From Candidatus Saccharimonadota bacterium (GTDB lineage: Bacteria > Patescibacteriota > Saccharimonadia > Saccharimonadales > Saccharimonadaceae): DNA of 49,077 bases. Below the pieces are notes generated by a model. It did no database searches. It was not told where the DNA came from and worked only from the letters and a program-made list of their open reading frames with translations. Of this stretch, positions 8,827-20,496 are shown piece by piece. Position numbers and translations under genes: made by a program. The DNA lies in the NCBI GenBank assembly GCA_028289015.1, contig JAQGHC010000002.1, forward strand, positions 1 to 49,077, read 5' to 3'. The stretch's first letter is position 1; the number at the start of each line of letters is the position of its first letter.

Positions 8827-9915
8827 TTAAAATATGCTTCGTTTTTTCGTATCAAATTGTTCAAGCAATTCTTTTTGCTTTTTAGTCAATTTGGTTGGCG
8901 TATCGACGACAATACTGACGATCTGAGGACCACGTGTCGTGCTACGCAAATGAGGCACACCGTGATTTGTGAGTTTAAAATCAGTGCCACTTTGTGTGCC
9001 AGCAGGGATTTTCATACGGATCATTCCGTCGACCGTTTCGACGTCAATTTCAGTACCTAGTGCAGCATCGATCATACTGACATGCTCTTCCGATAGGATA
9101 ATATCACCTTCACGCGTGAACTTTTTATGCGCTTTGACACGGATATGTACATATAAATCACCGCGGTCACCCGCGCCGATTGCTTCACCACGCTCTTTTA
9201 AGCGAATTGTCGAACCGTCATCAATACCAGCAGGTACCTTAAGGGTGATATTTTGCTTGCGACGCTCTGTTCCTTTGCCTCGACAAACTGTACAGACTTT
9301 TTCCGGAATCTTGCCAGCACCATGGCACGTTTCGCAGGTCACCGCTTGCTGGATTTGTCCGAATATCGTGTTCATAACACGCGCTTGTTGGCCAGCGCCT
9401 TTACATGTTGGACAAACCTTCATGCTATGACCAGGTTCGACGGTCGAACCTTTACAGTGCGAGCACTCATCTTCCATGTCTAGCGTTAGTTCTTCTTCAA
9501 CACCAAAAATTGCCTGTTCAAACGTCAAAGTTAACGTTGTTTCAACGTCACGACCACGTTTAGGTCCGCGTTGTTGCTGCTGTGCGCCACCACCGAAGAA
9601 TTGACCAAAAATATCACCAAGCCCACCGTCACCAAAATCAAAGTGAACGTTCTGTCCACCAAAGCCCTCGAATGGACTACCACCGCCGCCACCGTTACCA
9701 CCGACCCCAGCATGACCGAATTGATCATAGCGTTGTCGCTTTTGCTGATCTTTTAAGACTTCGTATGCTTCATTAATCTCTTTAAATTTTGTCTCGTCGC
9801 CACCTTCTTTATCAGGGTGATGCTGAACAGCAGCCTTGCGATAGGCTTTTTTTAACTCGTCAGCCGATGCGGTTTTGCTGACTCCTAGAACTTCGTAATA
9901 ATCACGTTTACTCAT
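8827..9915 (-). CDS. dnaJ: Chaperone protein DnaJ
   Basis: J-domain HPDKEGG, Gly-rich region, four CxxCxGxG zinc motifs. Confidence 0.98.
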
Positions 9916-9934: not shown

Positions 9935-9961
9935 CTAGCACTCGATATACAAGAGTGCTAG
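9935..9961. promoter_or_regulatory. CIRCE operator (HrcA site) upstream of dnaJ
   Basis: ctagcactc-gatatacaa-gagtgctag, perfect 9-N9-9 inverted repeat. Confidence 0.95.
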
Positions 9962-14628: not shown

Positions 14629-16527
14629 TTACTTTTTCTTATCGTCTTTTTCGTCGATAACTTCACCTTCGACTGGTTCATCCTTTTTCGATTCGCCGTC
14701 TTCAGAGGCAGGTGCTTCCTCTTTGTCGGCTGTTTCGTAAAGTTTCGCACCAATAGTTTGGATCTTTTCTAGTAATTCCTTGCTAGCAGATTCTAGCTCT
14801 TCTTTGTCATTAGAATCTTTATGTTTTTTCGCTTCTTCGACAGCATCAGTGATGACTTTTTTGTCTTCATCGCTAATCTTGTCTTTGTATTCGTTTGGCA
14901 TTTTCTCTGCCTGATAAATAGCGTTTTCTAATGTATTACGAGCATCGACGGATTCACGCTTCTTTTTGTCTTCTTCTGCATGCGCCTCTGCTTCTTTAGC
15001 GGCTTTTTCGATGTCTTCTTTTGAAAGGTTGCCGCTGTCAGAAATTGTAATCTTCTGCTCTTTGCCGGTTCCCTTGTCTTTAGCGGTAACATTTAGAATA
15101 CCGTTCGCGTCCAGATCAAACGTCACTTCGATTTGCGGCACACCACGAGGTGCAGGTGCAATACCGTCTAATGTAAAGCGGCCAAGAGATTTATTGTCAG
15201 CTGCCATTTCTCGCTCGCCCTGCAAGACATGAATTTCAACTTGCGGTTGATTATCAGCGGCAGTCGAGAACGTTTCTGACTTGCTTGTAGGAACTGTACT
15301 GTTACGGTCGATCAGTTTGGTCGTCACGCCGCCCATTGTTTCAATACCGAGTGATAGTGGCGTTACGTCAAGTAGCAGGACATCTTTGACATCACCGGCA
15401 AGCACACCCGCTTGAATAGCAGCACCAATCGCGACGACTTCGTCGGGGTTCACGCCTTTAAGCGGCTCTTTATTAAAAATTGATCTCACCTTCTCGACGA
15501 CAGATGGCATACGAGTCATACCACCAACAAGAACGATTTCGTCAATGTCGCCTGCCTTAAGATCTGCATCTTTCAATGCTTTTTCGACTGGCTCAGCCAG
15601 GCGATCAATCAGGTCACCGACAAGTTCTTCTAGTTTACTGCGAGTCAATTTATACTCGAAGTGCTTTGGACCTTCAGCGTCTGCTGTTAGGAATGGCAAA
15701 TTAACTTCGTATTCAGTTGTTGACGAAAGTTCTTTCTTTGCCTTTTCAGCTTCGTCTTTCAAACGCTGCATCGCGGCTTTATCAGATTTTAGATCAATAC
15801 CCTCATTGTTCTTAAAGACATCAAGGAAGTGGTTAACGATACGATTATCAAAGTCCTCACCACCAAGATGAGTATCACCATGCGTTGAGCGAACTTCGAA
15901 CACGCCGTCACCAAGCTCAAGGACGGAGACGTCGAACGTACCACCACCAAGGTCAAAGACAACAATCTTTTCATCTTTTTTGCTTTCAAGACCGTAGGCA
16001 AGAGCGGCGGCAGTCGGCTCGTTAATAATACGCTTCACCTCTAGACCAGCAATTTTACCCGCATCTTTAGTTGCCTGACGCTGTGAGTCATCGAAATACG
16101 CAGGAACAGTAATAACCGCTTCGGTGACTTCTTCACCCAAGAAGGCTTCAGCATCCGCTTTGATTTTTGAAAGGATCATTGCCGATACCTCTTCTGGTGA
16201 ATATCCTTTATCACCCATCATAACTGCAACGCCACCGTCTTTCTTGACGATTTCGTATGGCATGATATCATGATCTTTTTGGACTTCTTTGTCGGTAAAC
16301 TTACGACCGATTAAACGCTTTACGCCATAAATAGTATTCTTCGCATTCGTGACGCGCTGACGCTGCGCAACTTGACCAACAAGTCGTTCGCCGCTTTTAT
16401 TAATTGCTACAACAGATGGCGTCGTACGATTGCCTTCAGCATTTGCAATAACTTCAGGTTTACCTGCAACCATATATGCGAATGCGCTATTGGTCGTACC
16501 AAGGTCAATTCCTATAATTTTACCCAT
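14629..16527 (-). CDS. dnaK: Chaperone protein DnaK
   Basis: [27 protein letters not shown]...; SD ggagg before ATG at 16527. Confidence 0.98.
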
Positions 16528-16578
16528 TATTGTGTCCTCCATTTGTCATTTGCTCTATAAAATTCGTATATTCTTATC

Positions 16579-16622: not shown

Positions 16623-16649
16623 ATTAGCACTCTAGTGTCAAGAGTGCTA
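16623..16649. promoter_or_regulatory. Perfect CIRCE operator upstream of dnaK
   Basis: TTAGCACTC-tagtgtcaa-GAGTGCTAA, exact consensus. Confidence 0.97.
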
Positions 16650-17241: not shown

Positions 17242-18315
17242 CTAAATACGATACCACTTAGTGCCGTCGCTAAGAAAATCGTTGCTTTGTCGCTGAGTAT
17301 TGACCGAAATAGTCACTTGGTCGTCAATTAGCTCCCCGCCCTGTGGCTGGACGATAATTGCGTTTACGCTGCTATCAACCTTTTTGACACTTAGCGTTGC
17401 GCCGCTTGCAACTGGAGGCATCGTAATAGTAAAGCCGCCACTCGTTGCGTTAGCAATCACAAAATCACCGTTAACTGCCGTATAGGCTGTCGTTCTAGCG
17501 ATGACAGCGACGCCAGGACCGCTGCCCGCAGGAAGAGTATAGTAACCTTTTGTGCCCGACGCATTAGTACCGTAGTATTTACCATTGCCAGGGGCTGCAC
17601 TGTCGCCACTTAAACTTAATGTGCGGCTAGCAGAGAGGTTACCACCACCATCCAAAGAGCCGCTCGTGGCAATTTGAATTGTTTGGTCAACTTTAGCAGC
17701 AAGGACCTGGAACAGTTGGCGCAGCAGCCGTGCCACCAAGGTCGCCAGCGAGCTGAACGATACCTTTTGTAGAAGCAGTGGCGTCTGAGATGTCTCCGAC
17801 ACTACTTGGAGTCGCCCAAGCCAAGCCAACGCCGTCATAGGACAGAACCTGATTGGCAATAGCACCGCTGGCACTTAACTTTCCAACAGTCACAGTGCTA
17901 TTTGCCAACTTGGATGTCGTGACACTTCCATCAGCTGTCGTCGTGGTGTTCAGTTTTGTTTGCACAGCAGCGGCTAGGTCAGCTTCGGGAACACCGCCAG
18001 CAGGGAGAGTGTATTTCACATTAATGGCTGATTGTGTCGCAGTTGAGATAGGCTTGCCAAATCACTAGCATTGTCAGCATTTGCTAAACTAACGTCTGCT
18101 TTGGTGATTGCGACTGCGCCCGTCCGGCCATTCACACTGGCGACACTATTACTTCCAATCACATTAAGTTTCGCTACGGTCGCAGAATCCAACTTTGCTT
18201 CAGAAATAATTCCGTCTTTTAATGTTCCGTCACTTCGATGTACTTGACTTAGGTAGTCATTGAGAATACTACCCCACCGACCACTATCCGAACCGGGCTG
18301 CGGTAACCGTGCCAT
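17242..18315 (-). pseudogene. Phage tail-fibre-like/surface repeat protein disrupted by two frameshifts (ORFs 18016..18315, 17693..18019, 17242..17874)
   Basis: MARLPQPGSDSGRWGSILNDYLSQ...SLANADNASDLA / KPISTATQSAINVKYTLPAGG...IVQLAGDLGGTAAAPTVPG / LAAKVDQTIQIATSGSLDGGG...; first and third ORFs share a frame. Confidence 0.75.
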
Positions 18316-19124: not shown

Positions 19125-19589
19125 CTATTGGCGAGTGACTTTGACCATCGCATGGCGGATTGGCTGGCCATTAAGCGTATAGCCAGCCTGTAATTCTTCG
19201 GCAATCACCTCTTTTTCACCTTCGGCTTCTTCATCAAATTGAATCGCTTCGTGGAAGTCCGGATTAAACTCGACACCATTAGCGGCATCAATTCGTTTTA
19301 AGTTTAGACCTTCGAGTGATTTTTCAAGATTTTTTACCAGATTGGCAATACCTTGGACCCACTTATTATCTTTTAATTCTTCAGGCGTGTAGGCGATGGC
19401 ACGTTCGATATTATCAATAACAGGTAGCAGTTTTAGAATTGCGGCAGATTGTCCATGTGTATATGTAGCGGCTTTGTCAGCTTCACTACGCTTACGGTAA
19501 TTTTCAAAATCCGCCCGCGTACGCTGCAAATCGCCAGTTAACTCAACGATTTGCTCTTCAAGATCTTCAACTTTTTTACTTTTTGTCAT
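19125..19589 (-). CDS. grpE: Nucleotide exchange factor GrpE
   Basis: LQRTRADFENYRKRSEADK...LLPVIDNIERAI...FNPDFHEAI...GYTLNGQPIRHAMVKV. Confidence 0.96.
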   Translation of the reverse strand: MTKSKKVEDLEEQIVELTGDLQRTRADFENYRKRSEADKAATYTHGQSAAILKLLPVIDNIERAIAYTPEELKDNKWVQGIANLVKNLEKSLEGLNLKRIDAANGVEFNPDFHEAIQFDEEAEGEKEVIAEELQAGYTLNGQPIRHAMVKVTRQ

Positions 19590-19601: not shown

Positions 19602-19736
19602 CTAAAATAGATTCCCAATTGCGTTAATTAAACTAATGAGCGCGTCGCCGATTGCCTGAACAACGGCAACGACCGCATTCACAATTGCACCGATGACTGC
19701 GATGAATCCATCGATAATCGTGTTGATAACTTCCAT
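19602..19736 (-). CDS. 44-aa amphipathic peptide of four 11-residue repeats, between hrcA and grpE
   Basis: MEVINTIIDGF/IAVIGAIVNAV/VAVVQAIGDAL/ISLINAIGNLF*; SD AGGAGG 7 nt before ATG; ATG overlaps hrcA stop (TAATG). Confidence 0.85.
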   Translation of the reverse strand: MEVINTIIDGFIAVIGAIVNAVVAVVQAIGDALISLINAIGNLF

Positions 19737-20449
19737 TACAATACCTCCTCTAACATTGCGCCGGCATGACGCACGAGCCGCATTACTTTTCCATAACTTT
19801 GACGTGTCGGGCCAAGGACACCGATGTAACTACGATCACTATACGGCGAACGGAAGCGGCTGATAATCAAACTTGCCCCGCTAGTTTTACCGATCGGATT
19901 TTCGGCGCCGATGTAGACATTTAACGGTTCGTTCGGCGCCGCTTCGCGTAGCCACGGCTCTAGGTTATCAAGCAACCTGGCAACCGATTGGGCGTGCGTC
20001 CCGCTCATAAATTCTGGCTGCGAGAACAGATTGCCAATACCGCTCATATATAACTCGTCCCCGATTGTTGCAATACCTAAGTTTTGCGTCAGATCAACAA
20101 GACTGTCAACAGCACTGCGAATTGCCCGATCTGCCCGTTCGCCACCATACGTATTGACTCGCGCCTCAATCGCTCTCGCACTGCGATCAAGTTCTTGCGT
20201 CTGCTCATTGGCGTGCTGTTCGGTTAACGTGTTGACGTAAAATCGGTAGCCTTGATCGGTTGGTATACGTCCCGCACTAGTGTGTGGTTGCATAATCATT
20301 CCCATATCCTCTAACCGTGCCATTTCACTACGGATTGTGGCGCTAGAAACATTAAATAATTTTGCTAGTATCACGCTACCGACAGGCACAGCTATTTCAG
20401 CGTACTGTTCGATAATTGCGGCAAGGATGGCTATTTGACGACTTGTCAT
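19736..20449 (-). CDS. hrcA: Heat-inducible transcription repressor HrcA (short, 237 aa)
   Basis: MTSRQIAILAAIIEQYAEIAVPVGS...SSATIRSEMARLEDMGMIMQPHTSAGRIPTDQGYRFYV. Confidence 0.95.
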   Translation of the reverse strand: MTSRQIAILAAIIEQYAEIAVPVGSVILAKLFNVSSATIRSEMARLEDMGMIMQPHTSAGRIPTDQGYRFYVNTLTEQHANEQTQELDRSARAIEARVNTYGGERADRAIRSAVDSLVDLTQNLGIATIGDELYMSGIGNLFSQPEFMSGTHAQSVARLLDNLEPWLREAAPNEPLNVYIGAENPIGKTSGASLIISRFRSPYSDRSYIGVLGPTRQSYGKVMRLVRHAGAMLEEVL

Positions 20450-20469: not shown

Positions 20470-20496
20470 CTAGCACTCTTGCAACCAGAGTGCTAG
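20470..20496. promoter_or_regulatory. CIRCE operator upstream of hrcA
   Basis: ctagcactc-ttgcaacca-gagtgctag, perfect inverted repeat. Confidence 0.95.

Follow-up and report, generated by a model that had tools for sequence, protein, structure and literature searches.

A conserved 44-residue amphipathic micropeptide gene between hrcA and grpE in a heat-shock operon of Saccharibacteria

Bacterial heat-shock operons are usually viewed as protein-folding machinery only. In the 49,077-nucleotide stretch of Saccharibacteria DNA analyzed here (the window), a reading frame of 44 codons is wedged between hrcA, which encodes the heat-shock repressor, and grpE. A gene of this length could easily escape gene callers, and the locus raises the question of whether the frame encodes a peptide under selection and, if so, what such a peptide might do among chaperones. 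An earlier note on the same DNA had proposed a membrane-binding, pore-forming or membrane-protecting micropeptide that is co-regulated with heat shock and possibly relevant to an episymbiont.

In this study, we report that the frame is well supported as a real, conserved micropeptide gene. The gene was previously unclassified: no Pfam or NCBIfam model matches the peptide, and no relevant report of an hrcA-grpE micropeptide in Saccharibacteria was retrieved from the literature. The peptide probably lies on the membrane and steadies it during heat stress. If this is true, the operon would also contribute to membrane protection, as known from yeast Hsp12, through a micropeptide that binds membranes and is co-translated with HrcA and GrpE. 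In addition, this unusually regular natural 11/3 helix has a length accessible to synthesis, which would permit direct tests of lipid-packing and helix-design ideas.

The gene and its heat-shock operon

The peptide gene occupies positions 19602-19736 on the minus strand and was recognized by its ORF, conservation, dN<<dS and predicted helix. Read from 19736 to 19602, its 44 codons give MEVINTIIDGFIAVIGAIVNAVVAVVQAIGDALISLINAIGNLF*. Re-reading of the ORF confirmed the features originally described, i.e., a polar column (D9, N20, D31 and N42), a second polar column (N5, G16, Q27 and N38), a column of Ile residues (I7, I18, I29 and I40), the lack of Lys, Arg, His, Cys, Pro and Trp, and a net charge of -3 (E2, D9 and D31). 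Upstream lies hrcA (19736-20449, minus strand; PF01628, E=3.1e-18, and PF03444), whose TAA stop overlaps the peptide ATG (TAATG). Downstream, grpE (19125-19589, minus strand; PF01025, E=1.5e-38) has its own GGAG, and its ATG follows the peptide stop by 12 nt. Both the overlap and this spacing are as the earlier note had read them.

A strong Shine-Dalgarno sequence had also been claimed for the peptide, and AGGAGG (19744-19749, minus strand) is indeed located 7 nt upstream of its ATG, within the 3' end of hrcA. The motif is AGGAGG in 13 of 14 peptide-positive loci and AAGAGG in the other (G050). However, it is encoded by conserved C-terminal codons of hrcA (..LEEVL), is present also where grpE directly follows hrcA, and is thus shared with grpE in peptide-negative genomes. 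As a part of hrcA codons that serves whichever gene comes next, it is not by itself evidence for the peptide ORF.

The operon is preceded by an exact match to the CIRCE core, GCACTC-N9-GAGTGC, with exact inverted-repeat arms, at 20473-20493 upstream of hrcA. This operator, the co-directional and tightly packed order hrcA-peptide-grpE, and the overlap with the hrcA stop place the peptide gene in the CIRCE/HrcA heat-shock regulon, in agreement with the initial assignment. The description of the peptide as lying "behind a CIRCE" needs qualification: an exact CIRCE is present upstream, but it is ~740 nt from the peptide ORF and ahead of hrcA, and it therefore controls the operon rather than the peptide ORF specifically. 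An exact CIRCE was found before hrcA in 13/13 peptide-positive loci that could be tested (those with upstream sequence present) and also in nearly all peptide-negative loci; thus, its presence identifies the operon rather than the peptide. A gene for GroEL, the usual HrcA modulator established in other bacteria, is present as well.

Two further exact CIRCE matches occur in the window, at 16627-16647 upstream of dnaK (14629-16542; PF00012) and at 9938-9958 upstream of dnaJ (8827-9915; assigned from the ORF sequence). With exact cores at 9938, 16627 and 20473, the chaperone genes are split across separate CIRCE units. Elsewhere in the window, at 17242-18315 (minus strand), three ORFs overlap in different frames and together resemble one broken tail-fibre- or adhesin-like gene; two of these ORFs were scanned and had no Pfam match.

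Conservation, selection and history

A first search of 101 relatives identified 9 genomes, including that of the window, with the peptide at the hrcA-grpE junction. A profile built from these 9 peptides was run over 394 genomes of the window's family and detected 5 more at E<1e-10. In all 5, the peptide was again located between hrcA and grpE, although the junction was not part of the query. The resulting 14 genomes represent 12 of 61 sampled genera of the family, and the peptide invariably occupies the same site; it is 44 residues long in 13 of them and 41 in one. The profile search revealed a single copy in genome G000.

Comparison of G000 with its nearest relative, G001, showed changes at 22.0 of 31.7 synonymous sites and at 4.0 of 100.3 nonsynonymous sites, with 21 of 26 nucleotide differences in third codon positions. 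Only 4 amino acids differed, compared with a mean of 15.3 under random placement (minimum 8 in 20,000 trials). For the same pair, pN was 0.04 for the peptide and 0.06 for grpE; the constraint on the peptide is like that on its neighbor. Across all pairs of 44-residue members, pS was 0.75 and pN 0.29, and in the two shifted frames pS dropped below pN. Selection therefore acts on the protein. The earlier note had tied its case to a conserved ORF with synonymous-biased substitution at this locus, and this is what was observed in 14 genomes (dN<<dS), identifying a protein-coding, selected and conserved micropeptide gene. A chance ORF is ruled out by conservation, dN<<dS and the shuffles described below, and a conserved RNA element is disfavored by the almost saturated synonymous sites (pS about 0.75).

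The peptide is present in 14 of 394 family genomes; since most of these genomes lack it, it is dispensable. No members were found at hrcA-grpE in 393 genomes of the class outside the family, and the oral-taxon loci examined (L181, L190 and L192) do not carry the peptide. On an HrcA tree (a quick tree with SH-aLRT support only and many open forks), the 14 peptide rows are scattered and require 11 changes. After removal of one genome from the closest pair, peptide distances correlated with HrcA distances (r=0.34, p=0.005) and with GrpE distances (r=0.35, p=0.003) about as strongly as the latter two did with each other (r=0.38); peptide divergence tracks both proteins. Loss is seen within the same genus: G002 and G004 have grpE immediately after hrcA, and the HrcA of the peptide-negative G002 is 92-93% identical. 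The gene looks old and repeatedly lost. One old gene with many losses fits better than repeated arrival because of the constant site and the co-divergence; transfer of the entire junction is conceivable.

Two stand-alone amphipathic look-alikes were observed away from hrcA, both of unsure kinship: a 46-residue peptide of similar design near a sortase-like ORF (L021; G025:C29:19125-19253) and a 41-residue peptide (L208; G457:C3:75998-76117). In addition, a Saccharibacteria-type hrcA-peptide-grpE junction (L120) occurs in a probably mislabelled record, which is titled Chloroflexi (isolate PMG_070).

Periodicity, predicted helix and candidate roles

The peptide had been described as four "exact" 11-residue repeats. 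The pattern does recur, but the sequence does not: within the window's peptide, a residue recurs 11 positions later in only 11 of 33 cases. Lag-11 identity was 0.405, the highest among lags 2-22. The hydrophobic moment of the peptide at 98.2 degrees was reached by 0 of 200,000 shuffles and ranks first among 21,116 44-residue stretches from the six frames of the window, and the moment was maximal at 98-99.5 degrees in 14/14 members. A strict 11/3 amphipathic periodicity is real and common to all members, bearing out the helix periodicity that had been proposed.

Hendecad classes 3, 4 and 7 are Ile, Leu, Val, Phe or Met in 100% of cases among the 14 members, and class 11 in 98%. Polar residues make up 94% of class 5 and 85% of class 9, and Ala or Gly predominates in classes 6 and 10. 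Projected on a helix, classes 3, 4, 7, 11, 8 and 1 form a bulky aliphatic face of ~200 degrees that stays in register over 42 residues, and classes 5, 9, 2, 6 and 10 form an opposite face of Asn, Asp and Gln with Ala and Gly. There are almost no basic residues. AlphaFold2 predicted a single helix over residues 2-43 (pLDDT 93.9), an outcome expected from such a sequence and not proof of lipid binding.

Mean identity between genomes is only ~50%, and V23, I40 and F44 are invariant. The residues change between genomes but their chemical character persists, a pattern more in keeping with a lipid interface than with a specific protein partner; the three invariant residues may be exceptions to this rule.

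Tentatively, and with slightly less than even confidence, we propose that the micropeptide, under CIRCE/HrcA control, is a 3-11 amphipathic helix at the membrane surface and stabilizes the membrane in an Hsp12-like role. In this reading, the gene is coupled translationally to hrcA and grpE on either side, its transcription starts at the hrcA promoter under CIRCE control, and heat shock should de-repress it together with GrpE. The product would form an uninterrupted α-helix of ~42 residues that makes three turns every 11 residues and may enter the membrane surface by hydrophobic insertion, filling packing defects like lipid-packing-sensor helices. It could thereby brace the cytoplasmic membrane while chaperones rescue proteins; in principle, this would make it a bacterial equivalent of yeast Hsp12. 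We infer heat induction, membrane-surface binding and membrane protection, the latter two being plausible.

Several known systems are comparable. Yeast Hsp12 is a stress-induced protein whose amphipathic helices stabilize membranes; it has 109 residues and four separate helices with both charges on the polar face (PMC6164224). Like Hsp12, the peptide is a small heat-shock product, largely an amphipathic helix, with a proposed direct, non-enzymatic action on the membrane; it differs in being bacterial, under CIRCE/HrcA control, and a single 44-residue helix of aliphatic and acidic character, whereas Hsp12 is itself charged and less hydrophobic. 3-11 helices, built of 11-residue repeats with 3.67 residues per turn, serve, like Hsp12, in membrane binding and stabilization (PMC6164224). 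The 3-11 helices of synuclein, apolipoproteins and perilipin share these repeats, but they are longer and have charged polar faces, whereas the peptide stands alone and has a polar side of Asn, Gln, Asp, Ala and Gly. In ALPS motifs, as in the peptide, the residues of the polar face are small and for the most part uncharged, which would leave binding to the hydrophobic effect (PMC6164224). ALPS motifs have sparse bulky residues and a polar face of Ser/Thr/Gly, unlike the dense Ile/Val/Leu face and Asn/Asp of the peptide; with few charges, but an Asn/Asp/Gln/Ala/Gly polar face and a dense bulky face, the peptide falls outside the ALPS motif. Synuclein, perilipin, apolipoprotein and Hsp12 families gave no Pfam match and no meaningful PDB sequence match. 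The homology to synuclein or PSM-beta that the earlier comparison might imply was not borne out in Pfam, NCBIfam or PDB sequences, and pore formation was not supported. Phage tape-measure proteins were also considered as an origin and rejected: PHROG matches were weak (best 4e-4) and probably reflect shared hydrophobic periodicity or composition, and the 44-residue ORF lies in a chaperone operon.

Two properties sit uneasily with surface binding. With GRAVY values of 1.4-2.0 across members, the peptides are more hydrophobic than typical surface helices, and an acidic helix without basic residues disfavors binding to anionic lipids. Best 19-residue octanol sums are favorable in 13/14 members (down to -7.7 kcal/mol) and leave transmembrane insertion open as against a surface-only reading. 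The peptide might then resemble YohP of E. coli, a 27-residue protein that lowers membrane fluidity and potential and is protective under stress (PMC12719787): partially inserted or oligomeric, with the Asn/Asp/Gln stripe facing inwards, it could lower membrane potential or slow metabolism. Besides this precedent and the octanol sums, the small residues of classes 6 and 10 recur in a small-x3-small spacing that lends itself to helix packing, and other occupants of the slot have clear hydrophobic spans. YohP and other stress-induced small membrane proteins share a length below 50 residues, an association with stress and action at the membrane; YohP, however, is essentially a single transmembrane span, in contrast to the predicted amphipathic helix of 42 residues encoded in the chaperone operon. 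Because this helix is roughly double the length of one membrane span and shows no obvious turn, few basic residues are available to set topology, and the 11/3 pattern is unbroken from end to end, we consider insertion rather unlikely.

A role as chaperone partner or regulator, in which the peptide binds HrcA, GrpE or DnaK (e.g., as a membrane tether or by titrating DnaK to tune HrcA feedback), is more unlikely still. It would account for the strict position between hrcA and grpE, the matched amounts suggested by coupled translation, and a divergence that parallels HrcA and GrpE, but vertical inheritance alone also predicts the latter. Moreover, the peptide is frequently lost with no visible change in HrcA (as in G002), its conservation is chemical rather than residue-specific, and unrelated small membrane proteins take the same slot.

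A secreted, membrane-active peptide directed against a host or competitors is very improbable. It would be akin to the staphylococcal phenol-soluble modulins, which are likewise short amphipathic helices without signal peptides, and the peptide is also acidic; one of 9 members matched NCBIfam PSM_delta at chance level (E=1.2). However, there is no homology to modulins (PSM family models gave no Pfam match, and no PDB match was found), the peptide has an 11-residue repetition and lacks an export or quorum-sensing context, and a host-directed role is unsupported given the lack of a secretion signal, the chaperone operon and the absence from the oral-taxon loci.

Other occupants of the hrcA-grpE slot

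The slot was surveyed at 124 distinct junctions, which were picked by HrcA similarity, so that the proportions are not family-wide rates. The gap was shorter than 60 nt in 68 junctions and longer without a coupled ORF in 15; a coupled ORF was present in 40, and grpE was not nearby in one. These numbers also bear on the least likely alternative, a coupling or leader ORF whose translation matters to grpE and whose product does not: the start overlapping hrcA and the stop close to grpE fit it, but amino acid selection is strong with synonymous sites near-saturated, and most relatives couple hrcA to grpE directly (68/124).

Among the 40 coupled ORFs, 32 are strongly hydrophobic: 14 are the 44-residue-type peptide and about 18 are other hydrophobic ORFs (counting L048, which has two). 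As a new observation, other genera fill the same slot with different small, mostly hydrophobic candidate ORFs. One family combines a single span with a P-x-W motif (G..P-x-W) and begins with a short amphipathic stretch; its full score was reached only in its 7 defining genomes, all in the hrcA-grpE slot. Several other occupants are two-span proteins, as judged, like all spans in slot ORFs, by hydropathy alone, and the ORF of L111 looks soluble. Repeated filling of the slot by small hydrophobic proteins in these reduced, small-genome symbionts suggests a recurring need. It is arguable, if doubtful, that the slot is a "membrane arm" of the heat-shock regulon, in which an ancestral 11/3 micropeptide coated and stabilized the membrane until, in several lineages, unrelated small membrane proteins took over its function.

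In peptide-negative genomes, small hydrophobic ORFs, most of which have one or two likely transmembrane spans, were seen in the slot at L043, L044, L048, L052, L054, L055, L060 and L068, and further junctions with such ORFs are L074, L080, L084, L088, L096, L101, L106, L110 and L164. At L168 and L170, 26-residue slot ORFs combine a short amphipathic start with a strongly basic tail and are possibly shortened relatives or functional equivalents of the peptide. At L049/L130, in the position that a slot ORF fills in other genomes, hrcA is followed by a 123-nt non-coding gap built of short AGTAGATGGTAGTTAG-like direct repeats.
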